Source of the DNA: Glaciimonas soli | GTDB taxonomy: Bacteria; Pseudomonadota; Gammaproteobacteria; Burkholderiales; Burkholderiaceae_D | Length of the DNA: 64,000 bases | Direction of reading: 5' to 3' | Assembly: GCF_009497155.1 (NCBI RefSeq) | Contig: NZ_WINI01000007.1 | Span: 317,137-381,136 of the forward strand | In this document: piece after piece, positions 37,251 to 56,506 of the stretch | Layout: each line of letters opens with the position of its first letter | How positions within the stretch are numbered: position 1 is the stretch's first letter | Program-made: the position numbers and the translations under genes | The notes under the pieces: model-generated | What the model was told of the DNA's origin: nothing | Databases searched by the model: none | The model's input: only the letters and a program-made list of their open reading frames with translations

Positions 37251-39551
37251 TTATTCAACTTCAACCGTTTCTGGTGATGCGGCAGGTTTGGCAGAATCTT
37301 TAGGTGGAAATTCCAGCTTGACCTGATCCTGTTCATCCAGATCAACCGTGACACGACCACCACTTACCAGCTTTCCAAACAACAGTTCGTCGGCCAACGC
37401 TTTGCGTATCATGTCTTGAATCAAACGCGCCATTGGTCGCGCACCCATCAGTGGATCAAAGCCTTTTTTCGCCAGGAATTTACGTAAATTCTCAGTGAAA
37501 ACTGCTTCAACTTTTTTCTCATGCAATTGTTCTTCCAATTGCATCAGGAATTTATCCACCACACGCAAGATGACGTCTTCATCCAAAGCACGGAAACTGA
37601 TGATGGAGTCAATCCGGTTACGGAACTCTGGTGTAAACATCCGTTTAATATCGGCCATCTCATCGCCGGCTTCTTTTTTCTCAGTGAAGCCGATGGTGCG
37701 TTTTTGCAGACTTTCTGCACCCGCATTAGTGGTCATGATGATGATCACATTTCGGAAATCCGCCTTACGCCCATTGTTGTCTGTCAGCGTACCGTGATCC
37801 ATAACCTGCAGCAAAATATTGAAAATATCCGGATGCGCTTTTTCAATTTCATCTAGCAACAATACCGCATGTGGTTTTTTGGTAATCGCCTCGGTCAACA
37901 ATCCACCTTGATCAAAACCGACATAACCCGGCGGCGCACCGATCAAACGACTGACCGCGTGACGCTCCATGTATTCCGACATATCGAAACGAATCAAATC
38001 AATGCCAAGAATAAAAGCCAGTTGCTTTGCGACTTCTGTTTTACCTACTCCAGTAGGACCAGAGAACAGGAAAGAACCGATAGGCTTATCCGTTTTCCCT
38101 AATCCGGCGCGCGCCATTTTGATGGCCGATGCCAAAGCATCGATCGCCGGATCTTGACCAAACACCACATTTCGCAAATCCCTGTCGATGGTTTGCAATT
38201 TGCTGCGATCGTCCTGATTAACGGACTGCGGTGGAATCCGCGCGATCTTGGCAATAATGTCTTCGATTTCAGTTTTACCGATGGTTTTCTTTTGCTTGGA
38301 TTTGGGCAAAATGCGTTGCGCAGCACCGGCCTCATCAATCACATCGATTGCCTTATCTGGCAAATGCCTGTCATTGATAAAACGTGCAGCCAACTCAGCC
38401 GCTGTAGTCAGCGCGATGGCAGAATATTTAATACCATGATGCTCTTCAAAGCGTGACTTCAAACCGCGCAAAATCTGCACAGTTTGTTCCACTGTCGGCT
38501 CGTTGACATCGATCTTTTGGAAGCGACGTGACAGCGCGTGATCTTTCTCGAACACACCGCGGAATTCCGTATAAGTGGTGGCGCCGATACATTTCAGCTG
38601 ACCACTTGATAATGCCGGTTTCAGCAAATTCGACGCATCCAAAGTGCCACCGGAAGCAGAGCCAGCGCCGATGATGGTGTGAATTTCATCGATGAACAAA
38701 ACACCGTTGACGTTATCTTTCAACTGCTTAAGCACCGCTTTCAGACGCTGTTCAAAATCGCCACGGTATTTGGTACCAGCCAATAACGCGCCCATGTCAA
38801 GCGAATACACCACCGCATTTTGCAAAATTTCCGGCACTTCGCCTTGGGTAATCCGCCATGCCAAACCTTCAGCAATGGCCGTTTTACCGACACCAGCCTC
38901 ACCCACCAATAATGGGTTATTTTTACGGCGGCGGCATAAAGTTTGAATCACGCGCTCTACTTCAAACTCACGACCAATCAGCGGATCGATCTTTCCTTCA
39001 ATCGCTAATTTGTTCAGATTTTGCGTGAATTGATCGAGTGGACTTTCTTTTTGCTGTCCGTCCATCGGCGCATCTTCACCGCCATCCGACGATTTCTGTG
39101 TTTCGCTAACCTGATCTTTACGCACGCCATGCGAGATGTAATTAACGACATCCAGACGTGTTACACCCTGCTGATGCAGGTAATACACCGCATGCGAATC
39201 TTTTTCGCCGAAAATGGCGACCAGCACATTGGCGCCAGTCACTTCTTTTTTGCCATTCGATGCTGACTGTACGTGCATAATGGCGCGTTGAATCACGCGC
39301 TGAAAACCCAGTGTCGGCTGCGTATCAACCTCATTGGTGCCCGGCACAGTGGGCGTGTTGTCGCCGATGAAAATTGTTAGCGTCTTGCGCATATCATCAA
39401 TATTGGCTGCACATGCACGCAAAACCTCTGCCGCCGATGGATTATCCAGCAGCGCCAAGAGCAAATGCTCAACCGTAATAAACTCGTGTCGCGCTTGCCG
39501 CGCTTCGACAAAAGCCATGTGCAAACTTACTTCTAGTTCCTGCGCAATCAT
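37251..39551 (-). CDS. clpA: ATP-dependent Clp protease ATP-binding subunit ClpA
   Basis: AAA+ unfoldase that feeds substrates to ClpP. 766 residues from the ATG at 39551. N-terminal repeat domain (residues 1-150) that binds ClpS, first Walker [10 protein letters not shown], second Walker [10 protein letters not shown], with Walker B VLFIDEIH and LLLDEIEK. The start is supported by GGAGGAAGC just upstream and by the four-base overlap with the clpS stop. A longer in-frame reading to 39653 is not credible. clpP is elsewhere. Confidence 0.96.
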
Positions 39552-39856
39552 GCTTCCTCCATCACGCATTGCAGGGGATGCCCTGCTTTTCGCGCGTGCG
39601 TTAATACCAATTCGACCTTTGTTGATGCGATATCTTTCGAAAACACACCACACAGCCCTTTTCCATCACGATGCACCTTCAACATAATTTGTGTTGCAGT
39701 TTCTCGATCTTTGTTGAAGTACTCTTGTATCACCGCAACAACAAACTCCATCGGTGTGAAATCATCATTCAACAAAAGCACCATATACATAGGCGGCGGC
39801 TTGAGCTTTTGCTCCTGTCGCGTCACCACCGTTCCTTCTTCGTGCTTAGTTCCCAT
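39548..39856 (-). CDS. clpS: ClpS adaptor protein
   Basis: Adaptor that binds N-degrons and the ClpA N-domain, directing N-end-rule substrates to ClpAP. 102 residues with the core [18 protein letters not shown] (the NDD loop contacts the substrate N-terminus), the helix with [18 protein letters not shown] and the final LQCVMEEA. Translationally coupled to clpA through ATGA. Confidence 0.96.
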
Positions 39857-39945
39857 ACGGTTATTTTAGAACGTTCAAACTGATGTACTGTTAAATACTG
39901 TTAAATAAATGCGTACTGCTAAATTATTTTTTTAATTGGTGCTTA

Positions 39946-40108
39946 CAAAAAACTGTTTAGACCAGGCGCTCCGACGCAGGCAGCACGGCTGCTGTAGCAG
40001 GTAAATTAACTGCATGCACTTCGCCTGCGTAACTGATTGTGCTTACGGGCACTAAGTCCCACCTGTAAGGATAACCAAGAAGAGCAACAACGTATAAACA
40101 GTTTTCTG
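39946..40108. repeat. Inverted-repeat-ended element, long form
   Basis: The left end CAAAAAACTGTTTAGAC and the right end AAACAGTTTTCTG match the ends of the 87-bp element at 42205-42291. Sequence next to each end is also shared (GGCGC/TCCCGAC…CAGGCAG and GCAACAACGTA-like). The centre is about 75 bases longer here. CTTA occurs next to both ends. The antisense 102-codon ORF running through it (40265-39957) is probably not a gene. Confidence 0.65.
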
Positions 40109-40258
40109 AATACTTAAATCCAATGTATTTAATAGTACGCGTTTTCTTGTTGTAATGCTCTGATGACACAGATGACGATATAACGACATAATTCAAGGGC
40201 CATCCAATCAAGAAATGCATGATCAAATTAGATATCTTAATTTCCACTTGGAAATTAC

Positions 40259-40287
40259 TTGACATTTCTTTTTTGAACGAGAAGAAT
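40259..40287 (+). promoter_or_regulatory. Candidate cspA promoter
   Basis: TTGACA (40259-40264) with a 17-base spacer to AAGAAT (40282-40287). It would give a ~120-base untranslated leader before the cold-shock gene, typical of cspA-type genes. Confidence 0.55.
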
Positions 40288-40296
40288 GGTAAGTAT

Positions 40297-40325
40297 CTAT
40301 TGATGGGGGATGTTCAGATCAATAG
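40297..40325 (+). promoter_or_regulatory. Hairpin in the cspA leader
   Basis: CTATTGAT (40297-40304) pairs exactly with ATCAATAG (40318-40325) around a G-rich 13-base loop. It lies in the predicted 5' leader, where cold-shock mRNAs carry temperature-sensitive structure. A thermosensing role is inference. Confidence 0.45.
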
Positions 40326-40415
40326 AAGTGGGCAAGTTGAGGTGGAGGCAGCATTACGAGAAGCTTCTGGCTTTTACAGCTCGTGTGATTAGTCATTATT
40401 GGAAAGACGCATTTT

Positions 40416-40619
40416 ATGGCAACAGGTACAGTCAAGTGGTTCAACGATTCTAAAGGCTTCGGCTTTATCACTCCAGATGATGGTGGTGAAGATTTGTTTG
40501 CACACTTTTCAGCAATCGAAATGAACGGCTTCAAGACGCTTAAAGAAGGTCAAAAAGTACAGTTCGAAGTCACGCAAGGCCCTAAAGGCAAGCAAGCTTC
40601 TGGCATCAAAGCTCCTTAA
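40416..40619 (+). CDS. Cold-shock protein, CspA family
   Basis: 67-residue single-stranded nucleic-acid-binding beta-barrel, an RNA chaperone. RNP1 is KGFGFITPD and RNP2 DLFAHFSAI; the opening [14 protein letters not shown] is canonical. High identity across the family means the exact paralogue (cspA, cspD, cspE) cannot be told. Flanked by a candidate promoter and leader hairpin upstream and a terminator downstream. Confidence 0.95.
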
Positions 40620-40653
40620 TTATTTGTCATCACACTAATTAGGTTGCGTTTGC

Positions 40654-40681
40654 AAAAAGTCCCGTCTCTTGGGACTTTTTT
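40654..40681 (+). terminator. Terminator after the cold-shock gene
   Basis: AAAAAGTCCC (40654-40663) pairs with GGGACTTTTT (40671-40680) around seven bases. Confidence 0.92.
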
Positions 40682-40694
40682 ATTGGACGCACAT

Positions 40695-40727
40695 AAAAAA
40701 AGCCAGAACTAAGTTCTGGCTTTTTTG
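40695..40727. terminator. Terminator for icd (bidirectional)
   Basis: AGCCAGAA and TTCTGGCT pair around CTAAG, flanked by six A on the left and six T on the right, so it can act for icd on the - strand and as a backup for the cold-shock gene. Confidence 0.85.
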
Positions 40728-40751
40728 CTTGCGGGCTATTGCCTGCAAATA

Positions 40752-42005
40752 TTACATATTTTCTATCAATACGTCGCCAAAGCCAGAGCAAGAAACCTGC
40801 GTTGCACCTTCCATCAGACGGGCGAAATCGTAAGTAACTTTTTTCGATGAAATCGACTTCTGCATAGATTCAATGATCAAATCAGCCGCTTCCAACCAGC
40901 CCATATGACGCAACATCATTTCAGCTGACAAAATCAGTGAACCTGGGTTCACATAGTCTTTACCAGCATATTTTGGTGCAGTGCCGTGCGTTGCTTCGAA
41001 CATGGCAACAGAATCAGATAAGTTTGCGCCCGGAGCAATACCGATACCGCCAACTTGCGCTGCCAAGGCGTCAGAAATGTAGTCGCCGTTCAAATTGAGT
41101 GTTGCAATTACGCTATATTCATTTGGACGCAACAAGATTTGTTGTAAAAATGCATCAGCGATTGAATCTTTAACGATAATTTCGCGGCCAGTTTTTGGAT
41201 TCTTAAATTTCATCCATGGACCACCGTCAATCAATTCGGCACCAAATTCTTTTTGTGCCAATGCATAAGCCCAATCACGGAAACCACCTTCGGTGAATTT
41301 CATGATGTTGCCTTTGTGCACGATGGTCACTGAAGGCTTGTCATTGTCGATCGCGTATTGAATCGCTTTACGCACCAGACGCTCAGTACCTTCGCGCGAT
41401 ACTGGCTTAACACCAATACCTGAAGTTTCTGGGAAACGGATCTTTTTAACGCCCATTTCTTCGATCAGGAATTTGATCAGTTTTTTAGCGCCATCAGTAC
41501 CTTCTTGCCACTCGATACCCGCATAGATGTCTTCCGAGTTTTCACGGAAAATCACCATATCAGTTTTTTCTGGCTCACGCACTGGCGAAGGAACGCCTTT
41601 GAAATAACGTACTGGGCGCAGGCAGACATACAAATCCAATTCTTGACGCAGTGCCACGTTCAACGAACGAATCCCGCCGCCAACCGGTGTAGTCAATGGG
41701 CCTTTGATTGAGACTACATAATCTTTGATCGCTGCCAAAGTTTCTGCAGGCAACCAAACGTCTGGACCGTAAACGTTAGTCGATTTTTCACCGGCATACA
41801 CTTCCATCCAGCTAATTTTTTTCTTGCCGCCATACGCTTTAGCAACGGCTGCATCAACTACCTTGATCATGACTGGGCTGATGTCTACACCAGTACCGTC
41901 ACCTTCGATGTAAGGAATAATTGGGTTGTCTGGAACATTGATCGAATAATCAGCATTGACTGTGATTTTTTTGCCTTCTGCAGGCACTTTGATGTGTTGG
42001 GACAT
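40752..42005 (-). CDS. icd: Isocitrate dehydrogenase (NADP)
   Basis: TCA-cycle enzyme converting isocitrate to 2-oxoglutarate. 417 residues, homologous to E. coli Icd throughout. [10 protein letters not shown] lies at the start, and the substrate loop carries the phosphorylatable Ser in [35 protein letters not shown] and [17 protein letters not shown] hold metal and cofactor residues. Monocistronic, with a ~280-base upstream region before the repeat at 42205. Confidence 0.97.
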
Positions 42006-42204
42006 TGATGTATCTCCGGAGTTAAAGCGAGAAGATAGCCTTACATGTCAGGCGCTTAATCTGCGCCTCCCGTATAAGGCAATCGCTATTGCGTGTATAA
42101 GGTCACATGGCTAGTCTTATATAAGACATAAGACAGTGATTTCGTATTATGCACTAGTATTTTACTAGACGCTATGTTTTTGCGACACTACGGCAAGCGT
42201 TCCT

Positions 42205-42291
42205 CAAAAAACTGTTTAGACTAGGCGTCCCGACACAGGCAGTACGATTTGTACGACAAGGCGGGCGTAGCAACGTAGAAACAGTTTTTTG
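42205..42291. repeat. Inverted-repeat-ended element, short form
   Basis: CAAAAAACTGTTT (42205-42217) and AAACAGTTTTTTG (42279-42291) are perfect 13-bp inverted ends, with a further imperfectly paired AAGCGTTCCT/AGAATACTT outside. The interior has GTACGA twice and no ORF. It is related to the longer element at 39946-40108 and ends 9 bases before the next gene's start codon. Confidence 0.7.
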
Positions 42292-42300
42292 AGAATACTT

Positions 42301-42864
42301 ATGCCTCTTATCCTATTCAATAAGCCCTTTCAGGTCATGTGCCAATTTTCTTCGCACGCCACACGCGAAACTTTGGCCGATTACATAACAATTCCCGACA
42401 TTTATCCTGCGGGACGGTTGGATGCCGATAGCGAGGGCCTATTATTACTGACCGATGACGGGAAGTTGCAGCACAACATTAGTCATCCGACACTCAAACA
42501 ACCAAAAACTTATTTAGCGCAAGTCGACGGCGTCCCCAATAAAGCTATGTTGATGCAATTGCGCAACGGCCTTGATTTAGGGGACTTCACTACTCTCCCT
42601 TGTGAAGTGCACCAAGTTCAGGAGCCCGATTGGCTATGGCCACGCACACCGCCTATACGCGAACGCCTGTCCCAGCCGACTAGTTGGCTGGCAATCACAA
42701 TAATTGAAGGGAAAAATCGTCAGGTGCGCAGAATGACGGCAGCCGTTGGCCTGCCAACTCTGCGCTTGATCAGAATTTCGATCGGAAAAATTTCATTAGC
42801 CACTCATCCGTTATGGCCTGGTGAGTCGCGTGAAATTGCGCCGTCAGAGTTGATGAATATGTAG
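42301..42864 (+). CDS. rluE: 23S rRNA pseudouridine synthase, RluE type
   Basis: 187-residue RsuA/RluB/E/F-family pseudouridine synthase; RluE modifies U2457 of 23S rRNA in E. coli. It lacks the S4 domain of RluB/RluF, as expected for RluE. The catalytic Asp lies in AGRLDADSEGLLLLTDDG, followed by KTYLAQVDG and the C-terminal GKNRQVRRMTAAVG. The ATG at 42301 is the first after the repeat; an in-frame TTG at 42289 would start inside the repeat. No clear binding site is visible. Confidence 0.88.
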   Translation: MPLILFNKPFQVMCQFSSHATRETLADYITIPDIYPAGRLDADSEGLLLLTDDGKLQHNISHPTLKQPKTYLAQVDGVPNKAMLMQLRNGLDLGDFTTLPCEVHQVQEPDWLWPRTPPIRERLSQPTSWLAITIIEGKNRQVRRMTAAVGLPTLRLIRISIGKISLATHPLWPGESREIAPSELMNM

Positions 42865-56467: not shown

Positions 56468-56506
56468 GTAAGTAAGTCCGTACAAATACTTATACGGGCT
56501 TACTTA
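56468..56506. terminator. Bidirectional terminator between the phosphatase and efflux genes
   Basis: AGTAAGTCCGTA and TACGGGCTTACT pair with one mismatch around about ten bases. The right arm overlaps the stop of the - strand efflux gene. Confidence 0.7.

Follow-up and report, generated by a model that had tools for sequence, protein, structure and literature searches.

In the genome of Glaciimonas soli, two related sequences placed on either side of a cold-shock domain gene and an isocitrate dehydrogenase gene are probably copies of a single hairpin mobile element, non-autonomous and of the Correia/NEMIS class, and the account of its transposition and replication polarity given below is part of that judgement. 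Both sequences lie in a 64,000-nucleotide stretch of contig NZ_WINI01000007.1, positions 317,137 to 381,136 of the forward strand, which is referred to here as the window.

The window copies and the insertion site

The features of the window are listed below by window coordinates. Scores are those of R1, a covariance model built from 24 copies of the G. soli genome (alignment A2), and G001, G002, G003 and G004 are congeners.

39548..39856, minus strand: ClpS adaptor (Pfam PF02617)
39936..40116, plus strand: long copy, with the family ends and inner flanks and the centre swapped for unique sequence (R1 58.8 bits, model positions 1-105)
40416..40619, plus strand: cold-shock domain protein (Pfam PF00313)
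40752..42005, minus strand: isocitrate dehydrogenase, icd (Pfam PF00180)
42194..42301, plus strand: short copy, full length, TA-bounded (left TA now CA), a net insertion of 106 bp at TA (R1 89.4 bits, E 1.2e-17; exact empty site in G001, G002 and G003)
42203..42217, plus strand: left arm of the short copy, 15 bp, perfectly inverted relative to 42279-42293
42279..42293, minus strand: right arm of the short copy, 15 bp, perfectly inverted relative to 42203-42217
42301..42864, plus strand: pseudouridine synthase gene, its ATG starting in the terminal TA of the element (Pfam PF00849, E 7e-17); in relatives this ATG comes after the empty site
56469..56506, no strand assigned: stem-only remnant, a 38-bp near-palindrome with both arms and no core (R1 24.8 and 23.8 bits on the two strands, isolated arm matches; 32 of 38 positions self-complementary)

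A sequence-only reading of this DNA had described two related sequences sharing their ends and the adjacent inner sequence, and alignment bore this out: the left parts of the short and long copies agree over 42 nt at 88% identity and the right parts over 22 nt at 91%, and the window contains the left-end motif two times, compared with 0.04 times expected from shuffles. That reading located both elements correctly but placed their boundaries too far inward, giving 163 and 87 bp; the full extents run about 10 bp further, to terminal TA dinucleotides or decayed forms of them, and measure 181 bp for the long copy and 108 bp for the short copy, both ends included. The inverted ends of the short copy are perfect, as had been claimed, but over 15 bp and not 13 bp, and those of the long copy cover 13 bp with one mismatch. 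The short copy folds more stably than its shuffles on both strands (z about -5.6). The centres do differ in length, the long copy having 92 nt where R1 has 14 model positions, and its interior (39988-40088, 101 bp) had no second copy in the DNA compared; since this interior is unique, the difference is read as one altered copy, and the long copy was rejected as a second size class. In the genome-wide R1 search the long copy scored 39.5 bits over positions 17-89. No promoter-like or terminator-like site was detected inside either window copy, and the counts of such sites over the whole stretch equalled those of shuffles. The elements lie around the cspA-icd block as first described, both genes having Pfam support; this placement looks like a coincidence, since matches are spread over nine contigs. 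Further stem-only palindromes, with arms joined as if the centre had been deleted, were seen in the G. soli genome (G000) at C1:459193 and C27:123787.

At the site of the short copy, the junction in G001, G002 and G003 reads CTACGG-TATGCC, and the G. soli genome has 106 bp between these halves; the fourth congener, G004, has an unrelated 139 bp there. The left end of the short copy reads CA in G. soli instead of TA. These sequences fit insertion at a TA with TA duplication and later decay of the left TA to CA, where the duplication is read from one empty site containing a single TA together with the family consensus, a single exact empty site has about a 1/16 chance of showing TA by accident, and the same site is also compatible with a 106-bp insertion without duplication. 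Because the downstream ATG starts within the terminal TA, the insertion would have displaced the leader of the pseudouridine synthase gene and left its coding sequence untouched. A TTG at window position 42289, in the right arm of the element, opens the pseudouridine synthase frame, and the insertion may thus supply an alternative start.

Absence from relatives was also seen at other places. All four congeners lack a copy at the position of the long copy, where the spacers are too diverged for an exact junction, and at C1:1056568, where the diverged spacers likewise leave no readable exact junction; the copy at C1:1059759 is missing from G001, G003 and G004, again with an unreadable exact junction. 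The spacer of C1:1059759 holds a seemingly decayed copy of another arm type (AGGACTTAC-like) in G002 (C1:1282552-1282742, L238), and this spacer may have been hit twice.

Given the exact empty site in three of the four congeners, the short copy is best described, on comparison of sequences, as a non-autonomous mobile element (MITE). The suggestion of a mobile non-autonomous family was likewise supported by 87 model matches, by the terminal TA in most copies and by the empty site. By analogy with RUP and IS630-Spn1, we propose that a TA-specific DDE transposase of the IS630/Tc1 type would recognise the arms and mobilise the element in trans; a search of 1.26 Mb of the G. soli genome (approximately 30%) found no autonomous partner with the same ends. 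RUP has been proposed to be moved by IS630-Spn1, according to a 2007 review (PMC2229807), which in the same context describes the transposition route of such elements as lacking experimental support at that time.

The family in G. soli and its kinship with Correia elements

The sequence-only reading had regarded a lack of further copies and of end conservation as evidence against a family; the genome-wide search found further copies and conserved ends. An earlier pattern search allowing at most three mismatches gave 35 places, and the R1 search returned 114 rows that reduce to 87 distinct places on nine contigs, 70 of which scored at least 40 bits and are called strong; the long window copy, at 39.5 bits, is counted among the 87 and lies outside the 70. 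Ends, gene contexts and folds were read in 66 of the 70 strong copies together with their flanks. Between its TA dinucleotides the element measures approximately 104 bp: an asymmetric core of some 55 bp lies between two arms, each of some 25 bp, that are complementary to one another. At the left end the outer positions read T in 49 and A in 51 of the 66 copies, at the right end T in 57 and A in 55, and G and C stand just inside the ends in 65 copies each. Compensatory double changes were observed at 15 of the 32 predicted arm pairs (A2). The arms are of the type TAAGTA...ACTGTTTA or TTAGGACTTACGC, and subfamilies of AAAAAACTG, CGCATAACTG, CGCATAAGTA and AGGACTTACGC types occur, each with a matching opposite arm. 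By a simple open reading frame rule, 65 of the 66 copies lie outside genes.

Compared with Rfam, the copies scored below the gathering cutoff of every family, and identity with a known Rfam RNA was rejected on this ground. Searching a phage collection with one copy gave no match and a plasmid search gave two weak partial matches, both to Eleftheria terrae; a phage or plasmid origin thus has little support. The arms of the short copy (42205-42217 and 42279-42291) each show one mismatch to the IHF consensus (AAACAGTTTTTTG). The exact consensus is absent from the 66 copies and the long copy, and the one-mismatch matches sit in the arms.

R1 matched 14 of 40 genomes, G. soli included. In alignment A3, composed of 23 copies from relatives and five from G. 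soli, the asymmetric core is conserved and the arms vary between genomes yet stay complementary. A second model, R2, was built from A3 with no Neisseria sequence included, and of 250 genomes sampled from the order it matched 61, G. soli included, in 23 coded families; 15 candidates were scored per genome, so that copy numbers in this search are lower bounds. R2 E-values are rough; 28 of the loci were read by eye, with the core present in 28 of 28. A conserved core with arms that change between lineages is the reverse of the usual MITE picture of conserved ends and a free centre, which suggests that the centre has some role. Three tandem copies spaced at 115 bp were seen at G003:C1:795121-795456 (L190), an arrangement that recalls the tandem BRE of Bordetella. 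An exact 19-base pattern of the element, scanned against the contigs of other genomes, matched only Sporomusa malonica NZ_FWXI01000018.1 (L064).

Correia elements are known as a repeat of Neisseria, in which the arm sequence TATAGTGGATTAAATTT... is their hallmark. A pattern scan of viral contigs with the core gave 17 stretches; R2 matched 12, and the other five were rejected as pattern matches without the element. Six of the 17 stretches carry three to nine GCCGTCTGAA motifs each, which we take to be the Neisseria-type DUS, and several contain elements with TATAGTG..CACTATA ends, presumably Neisseria Correia elements. On stretches with the DUS motifs and TATAGTGGATTAAATTTAA ends, R2 aligned over all 105 positions (L308, E 1.8e-11), with scores over positions 1-105 of 63.5 bits for L320 and 61.6 bits for L308 and L314. 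Considering that a model built without Neisseria recovers Neisseria-type copies from end to end, the element appears to be a wider branch of the Correia/NEMIS class. Its arms differ from the Neisseria arm sequence, and for this reason it is called a Correia-like branch and not a Correia element proper.

The likeness to Correia/NEMIS/CREE extends to length (here 108 bp when both ends are counted, the net insertion being 106 bp), to the TA ends and target, to the inverted-arm architecture and to the asymmetric core AAGGCG..CCGCAGACAGTAC..GTACGGCAAGGCGAGGCAACG; the section of PMC2229807 on Correia elements gives about 105-107 bp, a terminal TA, TA duplication and inverted arms of about 24 bp, and the same core string, reverse-complemented, is found in a porB primer of N. 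meningitidis printed in PMC4189776. Unlike Correia elements, the Glaciimonas copies have arms unrelated to the Neisseria arm sequence, contain no exact IHF consensus, a site that belongs to the long size class of Correia elements, and show a near-total replication polarity in their own genome. In a literature search lying mostly outside subscription journals, we found no report of such polarity for Correia elements or other replication-oriented repeats, and none of Correia-type or other MITEs in this bacterial group.

Three other repeats were likened by description only. The RUP of Streptococcus pneumoniae is a 107-bp TA-targeting MITE in the account of PMC2229807, and differs in having a proposed partner insertion sequence, none being found here in the 30% searched. 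ERIC (RU-1) of enterobacteria is a palindromic MITE with terminal TA and target duplication, but its contiguous inverted repeat is shorter, 7 bp in that account (PMC2229807). The BRE (Betaproteobacterial repeat element) of Bordetella, Polaromonas and Delftia is dispersed, about 90 bp long, usually intergenic and sometimes tandem, and differs in that its authors report no co-orientation with the replication fork (PMC3110155). The BRE of Bordetella may belong with the Correia-like family.

Replication polarity in G. soli and its relatives

Of the 35 pattern matches, 34 lie on the plus strand of their contigs, and because of this near-uniform orientation, replication was tested. GC skew on the plus strand was negative in 55 and positive in five of 60 stretches of 20 kb, an unexpectedly uniform contig orientation for a draft genome. 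In C1 the last stretch before the switch of skew ends at 145 kb and the first one after it starts at 190 kb, and a dif-like site (by the dif consensus) lies at C1:192932; in C25 the skew switches between 420 and 427 kb, and dnaA lies at C25:453019. Replication arms were assigned by these two switches. The core-sense strand lay on the C-rich strand, against fork movement, in 68 of the 70 strong copies (p 4e-18, a value that, like those for folds below, overstates independence because the copies are related by ancestry), and in 82 of all 87 places with none left out. The two strong exceptions are C1:878549 and C28:53726. Only four of the 70 strong copies fall in positive-skew parts, and all four are on the opposite contig strand. 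The sign of the 3-kb flank skew by itself agreed with the polarity in 62 of 66 copies, and the flanks of the two copies on contig C3, which lay outside the 20-kb sampling, have negative skew. Where both neighbouring genes lie on the lagging strand, 15 of 16 copies obeyed the polarity, and where both lie on the leading strand, 30 of 31 did; since it holds for either neighbour strand, orientation set by transcription was rejected. All 22 copies with the best-matched arms obey it, indicating that the bias is present in the youngest-looking copies.

The polarity is lineage-dependent: strong in G. soli, it is weak or absent in most relatives tested. By 20-kb skew, 21 of 34 copies agreed in G003, 7 of 8 in G004, 2 of 2 in G002 (out of 12 matches there), 6 of 12 in G225 and 7 of 7 in G238, or 43 of 63 for the five genomes pooled (p 0.005), with several stretches having a skew within 0.02 of zero and hence a weak sign. 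G225 and G238 are the two, from a set of eight searched genomes, in which 20-kb skew was read (G077, G067, G061, G115, G040 and G239 were left out), and the matches in G005, G021 and G027 were also omitted from this count. When the skew of 3-kb flanks was used instead, agreement was seen in 27 of 52 copies drawn from many genomes; this set comprises the loci L158-L184 and L258-L285 (55 loci) except L163, at a contig end, and L260 and L271, which repeat L167 and L165, and it overlaps the genomes counted by 20-kb skew. In G001, a genome outside the 20-kb count, four loci with positive 3-kb skew have their copies on the minus strand. Strands in G003 (C1:1.75-3.98 Mb) occur in blocks, four plus (1.75 to 2.49 Mb) followed by nine minus (2.59 to 3.98 Mb) in mostly positive skew, which might record an old inversion.

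The two strands of the hairpin differ. In the arms of the 66 copies, 114 G.T wobbles fell on the core-sense strand versus 68 on the other (33 copies versus 17); mutational strand bias is an improbable cause of this excess, since on the C-rich strand it would be expected to act in the opposite direction. Folding with parameters for DNA made the core-sense strand the more stable in 51 of 66 G. soli copies and 42 of 46 copies from relatives; parameters for RNA gave 42 of 66 (p 0.05) for G. soli and 37 of 46 for relatives. The 46 are drawn from the same 55 loci, with L169, L170, L171, L179, L180 and L284 omitted besides L163, L260 and L271. Taken with the observed polarity, this asymmetry places the weaker hairpin on the lagging-strand template. 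Of the two exceptions to polarity, C1:878549 has the reversed hairpin asymmetry that hairpin avoidance predicts, and C28:53726 shows no reversal.

Possible causes of the polarity

The polarity would arise at or soon after insertion, a step of which we are less sure than of the transposition itself. Since symmetric ends and a palindromic target give no orientation, either the core would be read at the fork or wrongly oriented copies would be lost. Under the first option, integration would be coupled to the replication fork, where something reads the asymmetric core; under the second, copies presenting the stronger, core-sense hairpin on the lagging-strand template would disappear. Fork-coupled integration or hairpin loss is favoured over a segregation role and over a Y1 mechanism, both discussed below, and the strong polarity here, set against its weakness in several relatives, offers a natural contrast for separating the two options. 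We advance only tentatively, as a possibility with the balance against it, the more general proposal that the Correia class is an order-wide superfamily with a conserved core and exchangeable arms, in which the core would set direction at the fork and the lagging-template strand would decide integration or survival. If true, a symmetric-ended TA transposon would be made directional through its centre, and nearly all copies would be polar in permissive hosts, G. soli among them.

The copies might instead be structured RNAs acting in cis on messages, as RNase III sites, terminators or stabilisers, with positions that reflect regulation. The stable fold of the short copy, the compensatory changes and the wobble excess on the core-sense strand are all in keeping with this, and RNase III is reported to cut transcripts holding Correia elements in a review (PMC10969869). 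Orientation is independent of genes, however: 31 of the 66 copies run antisense to the genes on both sides and 16 run sense to them, 12 lie between divergent and five between convergent genes, and two are otherwise arranged. Considering also the Rfam result, the lack of promoter-like or terminator-like sites within either window copy and the site of the short copy being empty in three of four congeners, we regard this explanation as unlikely. A structured RNA may still be a by-product of the mobile element, since the stem covaries and a transcript through a copy would be predicted to fold.

Slightly less likely still is single-strand transposition by a Y1 transposase (IS200/IS605 or REP-associated) acting through hairpins of the lagging-strand template. 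The polarity of a hairpin element would follow directly from such a route, and the lagging-strand template is the reported target of IS608 and ISDra2 (PMC6006769). The insertion here nevertheless resembles one with TA duplication, the inverted repeats at the ends are long and symmetric, and the stronger hairpin is carried by the strand other than the lagging template.

Less probable again is a selected function, in which the copies would have been recruited to mark direction when the chromosome is segregated or organised. KOPS and AIMS motifs are direction marks of this kind, and an almost complete polarity, reversing near the dif-like site and near dnaA, would agree with such a role. Copies are sparse on one side of dif, however, where motifs should be dense, a single weak R1 match (465 kb) being found in C1:193-560 kb, and relatives with the same core are mostly without clear polarity.

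That the polarity is an artefact of contig orientation in the draft, as the negative plus-strand skew of 55 of the 60 sampled stretches could suggest, is very improbable and was rejected, because the comparison was made between element strand and replication arm, contig strand playing no part in it, the four strong copies from parts with positive skew lie on the opposite contig strand, and 3-kb flank skew on its own agrees in 62 of 66 copies.
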